DNA of 64,000 bases from Anthracocystis setariae (taxonomy: Eukaryota; Basidiomycota; Ustilaginomycetes; Ustilaginales; Ustilaginaceae): positions 186,001 through 250,000 of the forward strand of contig CAKMXJ010000016.1 of NCBI GenBank assembly GCA_928724745.1, read 5' to 3'. Below the pieces are notes generated by a model. It saw nothing but the letters and a program-made list of their open reading frames with translations. It was not told the DNA's origin and did no database searches. The number at the start of each line of letters is the position of its first letter. The stretch's first letter is position 1. Both the position numbers and the translations under genes were made by a program. Positions 46,549 to 54,113 of this stretch are shown here, piece by piece.

Positions 46549-46963
46549 ATGGATGAATCCGAACTCGAGCTGTACCGGGCGCAGCTCGTACAGGTCGAAA
46601 CTGCGATGTGCGCGGATGGGGACAATCAAGAGCTCCGTACGCTGAAGGGTGAATTGGAAAACTTGATCCGCTTGACCGAGTCCCTCACTCAACCCCAGCA
46701 GCCAGACGAACAGCAAGAGGAGCAGGGCCCGAGGTTTTCCACGGGACAAGAAGTGTTAGCACGGTACAGCGCCGATGGCAAGTTTTATCCAGCACGCATC
46801 GTTACGGTGGCCGGTCCCCAAAATGCTCTCATCTACACGGTGGTTTACAAAGGGTATGGGAATTCAGAGATGCTCCCCGCATCCTCGATAAAGCATCCAC
46901 CACCGCCGCCACCGGGATTGGATAGCGAGCGGGTCATCTCGCCACCCCCACCACCCACGTTGG

Positions 46964-46966
46964 ACT
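46964..46966. repeat. Target-site duplication ACT, left copy
   Basis: ACT directly precedes the left terminal repeat; the identical ACT follows the right one at 53818-53820. Confidence 0.85.
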
Positions 46967-46978
46967 CACATCGAAATT
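46967..46978 (+). repeat. Left terminal inverted repeat (12 bp perfect core)
   Basis: CACATCGAAATT. After 11-12 unlike bases a second matching block (GCGTCAGCGAC) follows, so the imperfect repeat extends to about 47000. Confidence 0.9.
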
Positions 46979-47415
46979 CGTGATGGTGAGCGTCAGCGAC
47001 GCAGGCTTGACACACGTCTCGTGCGTATGAATGGTGTCAGTGACGCAGACCTAACAGACCTGTGTCGTTGATCTGGGTCACACCGGTCTGTTCATTGCCG
47101 GAGAGACCGACACACTAGCTCTGTGCCACCGACGCAGAAGCTCATACCATGATCTGCGTCGTTGACGAAGGTAGCAACGACACAGGTCATAAGCTAGGCC
47201 TAAGAAGAGCGTCACTACCAACCCAGCTCAGCGACGCAGGTCATGGTATGAGCTTCTGCGTCGGTGAAGGCCGTCATCAAGACTTGGACAACTTGTGTAT
47301 CGCTTCAGCTGGTTGGTCTATGCCTTCGCTTCATGTAGTCTAGTTTTCACTTTGATCAATCATACCACTTTCAAGCTAATCATCCTCGTCATTGTCAGTA
47401 CCAGTACAATCAACG
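46979..47415. promoter_or_regulatory. Left subterminal repeat region and transposase leader
   Basis: About 440 bp with at least seven copies, in both orientations, of a motif close to CTGCGTCG[T/C]TGA (near 46990, 47038, 47060, 47129, 47153, 47232 and 47257). Two lie in a long inverted repeat. In CACTA elements, subterminal repeats of this kind are bound by the transposase; that role here is inferred. The transposase promoter must also lie here. Confidence 0.75.
47127..47266. repeat. Inverted repeat, 26-bp perfect arms within the transposon
   Basis: 47127-47152 and 47241-47266 are exact reverse complements. The pairing continues inward for about 13 more bases with two mismatches. The loop is roughly 60-90 bases, so a cruciform or RNA hairpin is possible. 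Confidence 0.92.
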
Positions 47416-50400
47416 ATGCCGCATGCTCTCCGTCTGTGTCGCTGCCGGCAATGCACCATTGGAGGTCAGCCGTACACCTTGGTGTCCTACAGCACTTGGC
47501 GGTGGCACAACATCACCCGGCCCAGGAGAGAAGAGCGAACGGAACCCCAGCCATCCTCAGCACAGCCGTCAACACAACAAGCAAGCTTACAGCATGGTTC
47601 GCAGGTCACAACAAGCAATACAAACGTTCCTGTTGCGACTGAAGATGTTTGTGCTGCATCGCAAACCCCACCCGCCGCCATCGTCAATATGGGAGGGTTG
47701 AGCGTTCGAGACATGGCTGATGAGGAAGAAGATGGCGAGGAATCAGAGGATGCAATGGACTCTTCCTCCGGGAGCGACACCAGCGAGGAGGAGGATGAAG
47801 AAGAAGATGATACGCCATCGATTCCGGCATCAGACCACCTCGGTAGAGCTCCGGATAGCACAGGAGATGTGATGGAAGACTTCGTCATGCAGCATTGGGG
47901 TCATCCGCCGCAGGAGGCACCACCACTAGCCTCGGCGGCATCGAGCTCATGTACGCCTTCCCCGTTGTGGACGAGGCAGCTGCAAGTCTTCGCCATGTAC
48001 CTCCAAGCTCATGCCAATCTGCCCGACAATCTCATCACGCTCATTGTTTCAGTAGTGTCTGCAATCATCGTAGCATTGCTTGAGACGGTGAAGCTTGCGA
48101 TCCCTCCTTCTTTTCCCGGCTATGATGTTGTCGAGCGCTTGGCATCATCCAAGGTCACCATTACGCCGGCAAGCATGCGCCGTGGAGTCGGAATACAAGA
48201 TACATTCAACCGTTACACAGTGTGTCCTGCCTGTGCTGAACTGTATCTCTGCAAGAACGATCCCAACCTCCTCCTCGCTCGGTGCCTCTCATGCAGCGCA
48301 AACATGCTTCATGGAGGGAAGCCCAAGCTTGTATACTCACACCGTTCGATTGCAGCAATCTTATCGACGGTGTTCCAGGATCGAGAAAGCGAGGACGCCG
48401 TGGAAAGCTGGAGCGAGTACCTTGTTCGGCAAGAAGGAGCAAGTGAGAGGGTCTACGATACCCTCTGGTCCGGCGACTCCTGGAGAGCCGACTGCTCCAA
48501 CCCTCACTGCGGTGCAACTTGCCGTAGCAAACACATCCCCTTCGTCGACCTTCGCATGCGGGTCAAGATCTCGCTGTTCATCGACTGGTTTACCGCTTAC
48601 AAGGGTAGTCACTCCGGTTCGCACTCAAGCGGCGTGATCCTCATGCGAATTGACAACATTCCATCCAGTCTGGTCTCGCGCGATCGTAGGTGTGCGGGTA
48701 TCTATCTCATTGGTGTGCTTCCTGGCCCGAAAGAGCAAGATGTCTACAAGCTCTACCCATTCTTAAAGCTTGTCACCGATGAGCTCGCCAAGCTTTACAC
48801 AGACGGAGTCACGATCAAGACCTCAAGGCATCCAGAAGGTAAGTTCATGGTTCATGGCTGTGTAGGAGTCTTCGAGAACGCACAGACTGACACAGAAGAC
48901 CGGGGAAACTATGGCACACGGCATTTGATCTTGTCTCGCTTATGCTAAACAGGTCTCACAGTCAAGGTCAAGCTTGGCATGGTGGTTGCCGACAGTCCAG
49001 CAAGGCAAAAGGTTGGCGGCATCTCTCAGACCAAATGGGCGGGAAAGGGCTGCCCGCGATGCCACTTCGACCTTGACGATCTTGGTAATCCCCATGCCAC
49101 AGCAGCCGAGCCAAGAGGGGAGTCTCATCGAGCGAACTCTTTGGCGTGCTTGCGAGAGAGTGGCCGACAACAGCATGAAGCTGACGGCGTGCGGTACAGC
49201 GTGTTGAACGAGCTGCCGTACTTCAGCACTCCAACAATGTGCCCGCCAGACTACATGCACGCAATACATCTTGGATTGTGCAAACGATTCTGGCACAAGC
49301 TGCTTGTGAAAGCCTGTGGAGCAATCGGTGGAAGGCTGGCCGCGGTTCAAGAGGTCCTCAGAGGAACATCGTTGCCATCAACAGCGCAAAGACCGGACCC
49401 TCGCATTGGCGATCGTAACGGCGGCACGCCAACCGCCCAGCAGTGGCTCACGTTGTTCAGGCACCAACTCATCTTCGGCCTCATGCAAATCTGGTCAGAG
49501 TCTCTCGGCGGAGCAAGGCAGCTTCACTTGCAATTCGAGCCTGCTCTCAAGGAACGAAGTCGCCGGCGCGAGGTCATGCTGGGTAGCAAGCCGGTGGAGG
49601 AAGTGTTCCTGTCGGCGGTGCTTCTCATAGCAATAGTTGACTACACGGAAAGGATCAGTTTCACGGAGAATGATGTACAGCGGCTTGCAGAGTTGATAAC
49701 GGCATTCAATAGGCATCAGGCAAACTTGCTGGGACCCGGGTGGCTGACCTACAATAGTCACATCACGGAGCACATTCCAGAGTTCATCAAGAAGTATGGT
49801 AATCGTAAGTATCTGACATCCCCCGCCATGATCACGGACGCACGCTAATATACTTCTGTTGATCTTTGATTTGCATGGCATTGACAGCAAGGAACTTCTC
49901 ATGCTACCCGTTTGAGAGTTTCATTGGTACAATGAACAGGTCACGCAAGAGCACGCGGAAAGGAGGCATATTGGAGGAAAGCATCATGCGGAACGAGAGC
50001 TTGAAAGGTGAGCTGGCAAAGGAGATTCGGACGTTGCCAAGCGAGATCCGGGACAAGATGGTGAAGTATGCGAAGGGATCAACAAAGAAGCTAGGAGATA
50101 TCACCGAGACGGCGATGGCGAGGAAGACTTTGGAGGAAACTACACACCGCCTTCTCATCGAGTCGCTCAATGCCTTCCCTGGATCGTCGCAAGGTAAGTT
50201 CAAGTCATTGTTGGATCTATCTTTGGGGCCAGAGGACATAGCAATCGACAGAGCAGGTACTCTTTTCCACAGTCTAGTCAAAGAGTTCTTCCCTGCTCCG
50301 GTAAGGATCTCATCAGCTGGTCAAGGCGGCAGCGTCAATATCGGGAACACATACGTCATGGTTGCCGTGCCGCAGTACCAGCTAGTTGGGCAAGTTCTCT

Positions 50401-50675
50401 GGCTTTTCAGGAAGAAGATCACGTTTCACGCTGGCGAGGAGGGTCAAGATATGTATTTTGCACATCTGCGGTTGATAGAGATGGTGGAGTTGGCGACGGC
50501 GCTGGGTTCTAGTCACCCTTGCTTGGATTTGATGGAGGAGATCGACATCAGGATAGGGAAAACGGAGGGTAACAGGCGAGAAGTGGTGGTGCCATTTGGC
50601 TCAATTCGGGCCCAAGTCTCAGTATGTCCTTTCAAGACCATCAACGGCAGCTTTTTGGGGCTCAAAGCAGTGTAG
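47416..50675 (+). CDS. Tnp2/Transposase_21-family transposase, three exons
   Basis: Exons 47416-48838, 48953-49804 and 49888-50675 give 1020 aa. Introns have GTAAGT donors and AAACAG/GACAG acceptors, and phases match. The N-terminus has a Cys cluster (LCRCRQC), then a long acidic stretch (about residues 100-145) and a hydrophobic spacer. CPACAELYLCKN...CLSC (about 270-300) is a zinc-ribbon-like set of Cys. The core includes VVADSPARQKVGG, CPRCHFDLDD, then PTMCPPDYMHAIHLGL (about 570), the D-x-MH motif of this family, and SCYPFESFIGTMNR (about 765), equivalent to the usual W.FPFER segment. It would cut and join the CAC ends. A further GTAAGT at about 50193 could mark a fourth intron, which I left out because the frame is open across it. 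No stop or frameshift is seen, so the enzyme may be functional. Confidence 0.82.
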
Positions 50676-51351
50676 ATAGCTTTGCTTTCATGTCATTCGC
50701 TTTCGCAATGTTGATGTTGATTGCTATCAATGAAAAATATGTGGTTCAATAAGACGTAAAACGACTTGAGCGGCGAGCATATACTGCTGGTGGTTTCCAA
50801 GCCTTGATGATGGCGACGACGCCTCTAACAAGCTCCTTCGGGGTCAGTCACTATAACAGACCTCTTGCTAGACTCCTAAAGTATCCAAATCAGCTTCCAT
50901 TTGCGTTCTTTGCAATCAAAATCGTTGACAAACACTTGAATTGAGCATTCCAGCGAGTACTACCATCATACTGACGCTCGATGATGGCGAGCAGAGTGCT
51001 TTTGTCACCATCGGGTATGCTGTTCACAGGCTTTTGAATCGGCGATCCACAGAAGCTACATCGTCGCAAGGAGAATTCTGACTAACATTTTGTTCGGCCG
51101 AAAAAAAAAAGAACGCCAAGGAAGCTGAGTTGGAACGTGCGCGTGTGCGGAAAGATTTTGGACTCAGCCAACTCCGCCAAGCGCTTCCTCTCCAACCACC
51201 ACCATCCACGCTCGCCACTCCGACTCTCAAACAAGCTCCAACCAGCATCGGGTGCATGTCCTGATGGAGCGATTCTCTTGTTCTCATCTTGACCAACTGC
51301 CGGCGTGCCTGCTGCTCAGCGGCGGTCGCTAGCTAGCGCTCCTGCGCTGGC
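50676..51351. other. Transposon interior, region between the two convergent genes
   Basis: 676 bp between the transposase stop and the accessory-gene stop. It contains 3' flanks, one A10 run near 51101, and short ORFs without features. Confidence 0.45.
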
Positions 51352-53239
51352 TTAGCGGCTGTCCAAGCGCGGGTCCAACTGGTAGTCGAAGCTACCTTGT
51401 CCACCGGATGGACTTGGTAGAGGTTGCTCACGGCTGCTCACGACGAGCTCGAAGGCGGGGTCGGTTCCCCATTCCGATGGCAAACGAATGCGGTTGACAG
51501 CGGTGTTGGCCTCAGTTCTCTCACGATTTTCCTGGACATCTTCGGTTGCTGCGGCAAATCTCTGGCGAAACCTGTTGGCCACCATCCAGCGGAAGACGGT
51601 GCCCGGAAGAGGCTCAACATGGTCAGGATCGGCGGGAATGGTAGCTCTGTTGGGTCGGAGGAGGGTGTGAGTGCGTCGTGCGTTTCGACCCTGCTGCTCT
51701 GCAATGCGCTGGTCGATCATACGAATGGCATCCTCAAGCTCTTGTGACCGCCAAGCAACTCGTTCTACTCGATGTGTGTCCCTCGATCGCTGCACAAACA
51801 TGGTTGTTCCTTGCTCGGTAAGTTGCTCGTCATCAACATCGGACTCATCTTCGGACATAGCTTCGAAAGGTAAGAAGTCGTGGTCACCAAACATTGCCTG
51901 GATGTCGGCGTTGTTGCGCCAGCAATCACGCCTGGCATCCCACTTGGTACGGCGGCGCTGCCCTCTTCGGTGTTTCTTTTTCCTTACTTCCTTTTCCTCA
52001 ACAGATGTCCTTTGTTCATCTCGATAGGTTCGCATCAACCGCTCCAACGACTCCCGACAAGCACGCCTGGCAGTGTCGATTCCAACCATGTCGATGTAGT
52101 CCTTCGCTGGCCTATCGGCCCTCAGCTCCGCCGACTGCAAGAAGCTTTGGATGGCTGGTGAGTTGCCCCCTTCGTTGAAGGGGTTGTTCCATTTGATCCG
52201 CAGAAGAGGTTGGCCATGGTCATTGTTGGGAGGGGGGATTGCGATAGGGAGGGAGAGGTGCAGATCGTCCAACACCCATCGCGGTACGGATGTACTGCAC
52301 AAACGCGCGATGGATGATGTTGTGTTGTTTCTGTCCACCTCCAGCAGTCCTGCGTCTCCGTTCTGGTGCAGGCAGTCGGGCGGGCGATGATGCAGGTAAG
52401 TCTCGGCGTTCAGCAGTTGTGTTTGAGGCGGTGGCTTCGCCCGTGGTGGCCGTCGTCAAGATTCTTTGTTGTTCTTGTTGCTCACGGATTGCTGACCACA
52501 GTTCTTCCATCTCTCCTTGTCTTCGCTCGTCTTGTTCCCTTCGCACAACGTTTGCAGCAAACAGGTCTTGGAGCTGAGCCCGCACCGTAACAAGCTCATC
52601 TTTCACTTGTCGAAGCTCGGTTCTCAATGTTCGAAGTTCTATGGCGCATCACGGTGAAGTTGGTAAGTTCCGAAACAATCGTCAGCACTCGTCTCCGGAT
52701 TCGTGTTGATGTACCTGATACTAACCTTCATATTCTTCTCGTTGCGGCGCAAAGGTGATACGACCCTCAGTCCCTTGGTCAACATCTTCACGGTCAAGGA
52801 AGGCAGCAAGGCCTCCGCGTTCCTCGATATGCAGCAGTTGTCCAAGATGAGTAAGGTTCTGGAGGACTTCGTCGTTGATGGTGGTGTCGCTTTGGTTTGG
52901 ATGGGCTGTGAGGTGCTGGACTTGGTCCCGCAGCTCGTTGATCTGGTCTTGGAGGGCTTGCAAGGTCAGTCGGCCCCTTCTTGCTGGTGGTCTGGTGGCG
53001 GTGATGGTGGTGCCCGCATGCAGACTTCCTGCTGTCGCCTCTCTTTGACTTTCCTCTTGCCTTTCATCTTGGACTTGCGGCGGGTATGATGATTCAAGAC
53101 TTTCGGCATAATCACGCGCGGCGCTCATACCCGCAATTGTATCAACCAACGATTCTGATCCTGCCGCAGTCCTCAAGACTTCTCTCTCGCGCCTTGTCGC
53201 GGCATCGCTTTTGCTTTGGTTGTTTCGTCGCTGGGACAT
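51352..53239 (-). CDS. Transposon accessory protein (coiled coil; SDESD-type conserved segment), probably frameshifted
   Basis: Starts at 53239 (MSQRRNNQSK). Exon 1 ends at 52726; an 87-bp GT-AG intron (52725-52639) joins it in phase to an exon with a long coiled coil (LRTLRTELRQVKDELVTVRAQL...). The frame then ends at 52220, while a second frame open from about 52455 to 51352 carries on with IKWNNPFNEGGNS, a basic RRGQRRRTKWDARRDCW segment and MSEDESDVDDE. The switch is by one base and lies at, or near, a run of six G at 52232-52237. A five-base run would give one frame of about 599 aa; a 133-bp GT-AG intron is the alternative. Basidiomycete transposons with Tnp2-like transposases often carry a companion gene with a WN...F region, Arg-rich stretch and a D-x-MSSDESD-type motif, which this resembles. 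Function unknown; DNA binding is plausible. Confidence 0.6.
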
Positions 53240-53433
53240 GGTGAGGTTGGATGGGCTTGACAACGGAGGTAAGTATTGATCAGGATGGTGTTGGTGTTGC
53301 TGATTGCTGTTTGCGATCGTGACTGCTGACCTTATATGTCTTTGCGATTTGACCTCACTCTTCTCATTCGGCTCGTTTGCTACACACTGACAATACTCTT
53401 GCATTCTCTGCTGCTGCTTACGATCGAGACTTG

Positions 53434-53712
53434 CTATTGACTGTTACAGGTTCTCATGTTCCGCTTTTGACCTTGTGATCGCTCTTGGCGTAGTCGTCGG
53501 TAAGTATTGGCGTAGTCATCGGGAACTATTGTTGCTTCGAGAAGCTGTACTGACCGCTTTCCGCACTCTTTTCCAGACAGTTCTTCCATGTCTATAACGT
53601 CGTATTGCAATGCTATATGGTGCCTCAACAAGATCTGATTGAACCCAGCTGTGAGCGCGAGGATCAGGTGGCGTAGGCAGAATTGCCAAACGGCGTCATC
53701 GGTTGACGCCAT
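53434..53712 (-). CDS. Small ORF near right end of transposon, unknown
   Basis: A 92-aa frame starting MASTDDAVWQFCLRH. It lies upstream of, and on the same strand as, the accessory gene and could be an upstream exon of it or nothing. It is mostly helical in composition, with a basic C-terminus. No family recognised. Confidence 0.25.
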   Translation of the reverse strand: MASTDDAVWQFCLRHLILALTAGFNQILLRHHIALQYDVIDMEELSGKECGKRSVQLLEATIVPDDYANTYRRLRQERSQGQKRNMRTCNSQ

Positions 53713-53805
53713 TTATGGACGCAATGGGTGTGGCTTAACAAGAAGCGTCAGCGGTTACGCACGAGAGATGGGTCATAAAGCAGGTCGCTGACGCAGCTCG
53801 AGTCA

Positions 53806-53817
53806 AATTTCGATGTG
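53806..53817 (-). repeat. Right terminal inverted repeat (12 bp perfect core)
   Basis: AATTTCGATGTG, the exact reverse complement of the left end. The inner shared block appears as GTCGCTGACGC at about 53784-53794. Confidence 0.9.
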
Positions 53818-53820
53818 ACT
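53818..53820. repeat. Target-site duplication ACT, right copy
   Basis: Matches the copy at 46964-46966. Confidence 0.85.
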
Positions 53821-54113
53821 CGCTTCAGCCTCCACCTCCACCTCATCCTCCTCCTCCTCCTGCTGCTGCTGCTGCGGCTGCACCACCCATGGACGAAAAG
53901 GCGCGCCGCAAGCATAGGAACGAAAAGAAACTCGTACGCAGAGAGGAGAAGACCGCCCTTCAAGTGGAGAAGGCCGCGAGCTGGCAAAAGTTCGCCAACA
54001 AGGCTGCGAAGAGCAAGGTGATCAAGAAGAGCATGTTTGGGACGAGCGACGATCCCTATGCCAAGGTAGGCGTGACAAAGTCCAATGCCAGTTCCAAGCA
54101 GCCATTGGGGTAG
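53821..54113 (+). pseudogene. SPF30: SPF30/SMNDC1 splicing factor, 3' portion separated by transposon
   Basis: The frame continues the Pro-rich linker (LQPPPPP, then a run of Ala) and goes into MDEKARRKHRNEKKLVRREE, then SWQKFANKAAK...VIKKSMFGTSDDPYAKVGV, the conserved C-terminal block of SPF30 (KWQQF...KSIF...P...KVGV in the human protein). It has its own ATG at 53889 and so may look like a separate 74-codon gene, but it lacks a leader and promoter of its own: the DNA just before it is the right end of the transposon. The CCTCCA/CCTCCT and GCTGCT tracts encode Pro and Ala runs. This half is needed for spliceosome contact. Confidence 0.87.

Follow-up and report, generated by a model that had tools for sequence, protein, structure and literature searches.

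The 64,000-nucleotide stretch of DNA analysed here (the window) corresponds to positions 186001-250000 of contig CAKMXJ010000016.1 of Anthracocystis setariae, referred to below as C15 (C15:186001-250000); the genome comprises 21.5 Mb in 36 contigs, all numbered in the same manner. Within the window, the gene for the splicing factor SPF30 is found in two parts separated by a 6.85-kb element of the CACTA/EnSpm type (Table 1). The 5' half starts with an ATG at 46549 and its frame is open to 46980, where a TGA (46981-46983) ends a truncated product of 144 amino acids, the last five of which (SHRNS) are contributed by the junction codon and the element. The right half is open from 53820 to a TAG at 54111-54113 and contains 97 codons. 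Joining the flanks with a single ACT produces a frame of 711 nucleotides, or 236 codons and a stop. The first-pass annotation of this DNA had proposed that a transposon with 12-bp inverted ends and an ACT on both sides divides SPF30, and that deleting it together with one ACT restores the frame; both the coordinates and the frame arithmetic were reproduced. Neither half is damaged, and both remain open.

The 5' half contains an SMN-type Tudor domain (PF06003 SMN_Tudor, 25.7 bits with a cut-off of 22.7). In alignments with a 250-aa relative (P0004), 66 of 130 columns are identical for the left half and 48 of 65 for the right half. The N-terminal region, Tudor domain, linker and conserved C-terminal region occur in the same order as in SPF30-type proteins; the difference is that the gene here is broken in the linker, with 6.85 kb and a stop codon standing between the Tudor domain and the C-terminal region, which most of the relatives recovered hold in one chain. 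The insertion point lies in the proline-rich linker between the two conserved regions, and the length of this linker is variable among the 11 relatives aligned.

A profile search, in which the 7989 candidates with the most shared words were scored, identified 101 relatives, of which 83 have the two halves in a single chain. The 83 include every one of the 12 proteins assigned to named species that we take to belong to the smut lineage (Ustilaginomycotina; 10 species). These proteins come from Ustilago hordei, U. trichophora (two proteins), Melanopsichium, Jaminaea, Testicularia, Pseudozyma hubeiensis (two proteins), Parajaminaea, Sporisorium scitamineum, S. reilianum and Violaceomyces, and three of the 12 are labelled 'related to splicing factor SPF30'. 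Both halves match full-length SPF30-type proteins and belong to one protein, as had been proposed, and none of the 12 named relatives displayed the same large interruption.

The ends of the element are short inverted repeats starting with CAC (CACATCGAAATT on the left, AATTTCGATGTG on the right), as expected of CACTA/EnSpm transposons. Six copies with both ends are present in the genome, of which those on C15 (in SPF30), C5 and C21 are uninterrupted and those on C4, C17 and C2 are split by later inserts. The ends are exact in 11 of 12 cases (the left end of the C21 copy starts with TAC). All six copies are flanked by 3-bp target duplications (ACT, ACT, AAT, ATT, ACT and AAT in element orientation), which comprise three different triplets and fit the pattern A-N-T. 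Because the ends are common to the six copies while the triplets are of three kinds, the ACT at SPF30 is a true target duplication; the possibility that ACT is part of the element was ruled out, as other copies are flanked by AAT or ATT. The first 12 bases of the element also occur at C3:1227813, C3:1376587 and C32:612732, where the inner sequence is different (CACATCGAAATTTGTCTTG), perhaps representing a sister family. A 369-bp fragment at C15:29488-29856 (L011) is 84% identical to the left end of the element and is perhaps a short non-autonomous relative.

Table 1. Positions within the window of the two SPF30 halves and of the features of the intervening element
Feature	Position	Strand	Basis or remark
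SPF30 5' half with Tudor domain, 144 aa	46549..46983	+	PF06003 SMN_Tudor; P0004 alignment; single genome match
Left ACT target duplication, 3 bp	46964..46966	.	Duplications vary among six copies
CACTA/EnSpm type DNA transposon, Plavaka-like transposase, 6851 bp	46967..53817	+	Six copies with both ends
Left terminal inverted repeat CACATCGAAATT	46967..46978	+	12 bp
Subterminal inverted repeat, 39-nt arms, 95% complementary	47127..47266	.	
Transposase gene, four-exon model, 999-1004 aa	47416..50675	+	Gene models; PF18759, PF02992
Accessory gene region, several open frames	51352..53404	-	No Pfam family above cut-off
Right terminal inverted repeat AATTTCGATGTG	53806..53817	+	12 bp
Right ACT target duplication	53818..53820	.	
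SPF30 3' half: end of proline/alanine linker and conserved C-terminal region	53820..54113	+	97 codons and stop; P0004 alignment

The transposase gene is modelled with introns at 48839-48952, 49805-49887 and 50194 to 50241 or 50256. The spliced 1004-aa model scored above the cut-offs of both PF18759 (Plavaka; 33.4 bits, cut-off 26.3) and PF02992 (Transposase_21/tnp2; 30.8 bits, cut-off 28.6), while single exons remained below them (22.1 bits for the exon 2 frame with PF18759 and 12.7 bits for exon 1 with PF02992). The assignment to the tnp2-type DDE transposases is based on the Pfam score of the spliced model. A protein search that scored the 7997 candidates with the most shared words found 15 transposase relatives. 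Those with names belong to S. reilianum, Kalmanozyma, U. trichophora, S. graminicola and S. scitamineum, together with one distant tick protein, and the best matches were to Kalmanozyma (61%) and Sporisorium reilianum (56%). Published Plavaka elements have, according to PMC12730594, either TGT..ACA ends with 2-bp duplications or CATCA..TGATG ends with 2- or 3-bp duplications. The element described here shares with Plavaka a spliced transposase above the PF18759 cut-off, but has CACAT..ATGTG ends with 3-bp duplications; because its ends differ from the published ones, we classified it as an EnSpm/CACTA element whose transposase is Plavaka-like and not as Plavaka proper. For the CMCT group of fungal EnSpm (CACTA) elements in Puccinia, the same source describes 5'-CAC..GTG-3' ends, 3-bp duplications and a transposase resembling Plavaka (PMC12730594), all of which are found here. 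Compared to that group, the differences are the smut-lineage genome, an unclassified accessory region on the opposite strand, and the lack of a TET/JBP domain in Pfam scans of three accessory frames, which also yielded no Pfam family above cut-off. The accessory frame of the C5 copy is open for 424 codons, and the window copy has two frames in the same place. A run of G near 52232 is one base longer in the window copy than in the other five, which could be a sequencing error.

The six copies are 99.1-100% identical per aligned piece, and the 99.1% piece contains no mismatch, differing by a 9-base insertion. Excluding all indels and positions 50855 and 51257 (common to several copies), the number of private substitutions was zero in the SPF30 copy, compared to 13 (C21), 8 (C2), 4 (C4), 4 (C5) and 3 (C17) in the others; the extra G near 52232 is the sole private difference of the SPF30 copy. 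The element was active very recently in this genome, and the insertion in SPF30 looks young, because both halves of the gene are undamaged and the copy is free of private substitutions. Four more distantly related copies of the transposase region, with 64-66% identity, are located on C7, C32, C9 and C20. The inserts nested in the split copies are 8.2-9.2 kb long (C4:42182-50357, C17:478767-488010, C2:189516-197709 and C2:201067-209254) and are read as long terminal repeat (LTR) retrotransposons from their terminal direct repeats, which are identical at 350/350 (C4), 435/435 (C17), and 357/358 and 357/358 (C2) positions. These identical or nearly identical repeats indicate that other elements also moved recently. 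The C2 copy additionally holds a 204-base insert.

Of the six insertion sites, SPF30 alone lies within a recognised gene. Frames that are compatible on both sides of the break stay open across it for 250 codons at SPF30, followed by 177 (C17), 141 (C5), 109 (C4), 91 (C2) and 48 (C21). At randomly placed break points in the flanking sequence of these sites (C15 omitted), the median was 492 codons, with 82% reaching 178, and random break points in positions 2000-44000 of the window had a median of 573 codons, with 76% reaching 178. Since their open-codon counts fall low in the random range, the five other sites look mostly intergenic, with short genes or exons possible at C17 and C5.

Thirty of the 32 private substitutions in the other five copies (loci L041-L049) are of the C-to-T type, and 26 of the 30 occur at CpG, compared to 24% of C and G positions (binomial p ~1e-12), with 20 of the 30 in a TCG context. 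The CpG observed/expected ratio is 0.91 in the element and 1.01 in the window, so the element is hardly depleted overall. TCG is the target of mutation resembling repeat-induced point mutation (RIP) in Microbotryum and Puccinia (PMC10502011, PMC12730594), and repeats are CpG-depleted in Ustilago bromivora and U. hordei (PMC5106213). The C-to-T changes at CpG, above all TCG, in the five copies resemble the hypermutation described for Microbotryum and Puccinia, but they are light here (32 substitutions in all) and the SPF30 copy is untouched. This is a light RIP-like pattern in a smut-lineage genome, which the SPF30 copy has so far escaped. Three loci scored above the cut-off of the C5 DNA methyltransferase family (C19:538724-540152, C22:426197-426604 and C11:576894-577391).

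A second intact copy of SPF30, for which a search had been recommended, was not found in this assembly with the half queries, the SMN_Tudor family or a full-length query, although the genome may be incomplete. The left half had one match in the genome, and the SMN_Tudor family likewise had one match genome-wide. The right half had four matches at E <=1, one of them strong and the next at E = 0.012. Two different SPF30 proteins are listed for U. trichophora (P0009 and P0012, on contigs of unequal length), which may be paralogues or derive from two strains. For this reason, a full-length U. trichophora SPF30 was also run against the genome; of its seven matches at E <=1, only the three at the split locus were strong, and the other four had E >=0.05. 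No empty SPF30 site was detected in this assembly with a 26-mer allowing up to three mismatches.

The explanation that we consider very probable is that a recently active CACTA/EnSpm transposon has inserted in SPF30, most likely leaving this strain without the full-length protein. The element entered an A-N-T site in the linker and duplicated ACT. A transcript from the SPF30 promoter would now meet a stop shortly inside the element and specify at most a 144-aa Tudor-domain fragment. The C-terminal region lies 6.8 kb further downstream, with two gene regions of the transposon in between. Enumeration of splice sites (donors from 46870, acceptors at 53300-53900) revealed no good pair across the element. 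Given the early stop, the distance of the C-terminal part and the lack of a good bridging splice pair, full-length SPF30 is most likely not made by this strain. The first-pass annotation had suggested that the insertion is recent and that the gene was intact before it. This reading is well supported: the element is flanked by a 3-bp duplication, its sister copies are nearly identical, private substitutions are absent, the halves are undamaged and the relatives are uninterrupted. Several observations weigh in the other direction. The nearest relative found (P0001; 65% identity, 135 aa, on a 1136-base contig) lacks the C-terminal region, which may reflect the end of its contig or a real absence, and 17 further relatives have no match to the C-terminal half (18 of 101 including P0001). 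In addition, seven in-frame splice pairs exist on paper, one of them combining the donor GTGATG at 46980 and an AG at 53767. The mechanism, insertion of an active CACTA-type element, is ordinary; what makes the case interesting is the gene that was hit and how fresh the insertion is.

There are several alternative or narrower explanations for the split gene. It is rather likely that the insertion is real but polymorphic, with an uninterrupted SPF30 retained in other strains or in a second nucleus of the isolate, so that the species has lost nothing. This would be compatible with the transposon explanation above and would differ from it in scope alone. The lack of private substitutions in the SPF30 copy, the undamaged halves and the presence of the whole gene in the 12 named relatives are all in agreement with a polymorphism, and the first two of these observations suggest that the insertion is probably a young variant rather than an old fixed loss; against it there is nothing direct, the single assembly examined showing the filled site only. 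It is improbable that the element acts as a very long intron, across which splicing would still yield a nearly normal SPF30. Such an intron would sit in a linker whose length varies among relatives, and the seven in-frame donor/acceptor pairs would give proteins of 198-258 aa, including 237, 238 and 243 aa, near the 236-aa joined frame. However, the donors are weak-looking (GTCATC in five of the seven pairs, GTTGGA and GTGATG), making splice rescue unlikely, and an intron of ~6.8-7.0 kb with two transposon gene regions inside would contrast with the 48-114 nt introns in the gene model of the element itself.

A further possibility, to which we assign a very small chance, is that SPF30 is now made as two proteins, with a Tudor fragment from the old promoter and a C-terminal fragment started in or beside the right end of the element. 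Such an arrangement would be favoured by the position of the break, which separates the two conserved regions, and by an in-frame ATG (MDEKARRK...) just upstream of the conserved C-terminal part, and there is a precedent in the smut lineage, where the dynein heavy chain is already split, with U. maydis as the example (PMC4540427). On the other hand, the insertion seems too young for selection on the parts to have left traces. Finally, it is very unlikely that the split is an assembly artefact. Assemblers can be misled by near-identical repeats, and the G run of the SPF30 copy is one longer than in all five other copies; however, the halves are ordered and on the same strand, and the exact ends and matching 3-bp duplication would not be given by a random mis-join.

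Fission-yeast spf30 is not known to be essential, and budding yeast is not known to have SPF30. Loss of SPF30 could be regarded as striking because the human protein is reportedly essential, going by the title of a 2001 study by Rappsilber; against this stand a viable Arabidopsis mutant and the distribution in fungi, where Spf30 is said to occur mainly in filamentous fungi and intron-rich genomes (from the title of Mier and Perez-Pulido, 2012). The loss-of-function mutant of Arabidopsis is able to grow and flowers early (PMC12393150), and knock-down of SMNDC1 in C. elegans leads to synthetic sterility in sftb-1 double mutants (PMC6830814). A single strain that lacks SPF30 would therefore be informative without being a shock. 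It is unlikely, though conceivable, that the fungus gets by with no full-length SPF30, or with an SPF30 that the transposon has turned into two pieces; this would be either a knock-out of natural origin or a split gene that has only just arisen. If true, the loss of SPF30 could favour renewed transposon activity in a genome in which several elements moved only recently, since fission-yeast Spf30 helps exosome-mediated centromeric silencing (PMC5322907).

The locus provides a base-level record of a very recent CACTA-type insertion in the sole SPF30 gene found in the assembly, and a natural test of whether a smut-lineage fungus can dispense with a conserved spliceosome-assembly factor. It also identifies a CACTA family that has moved recently, together with light TCG-directed mutation on its other copies. 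Should strains prove polymorphic, filled and empty sites would form a ready-made pair for comparisons of splicing. No published transposon insertion in SPF30 turned up, although no search was aimed at that combination. The genes surrounding SPF30 in the window comprise an upstream gene with four CH domains and an EF-hand pair, which is presumably fimbrin-like, and an alpha/beta hydrolase and a sodium/hydrogen exchanger downstream.

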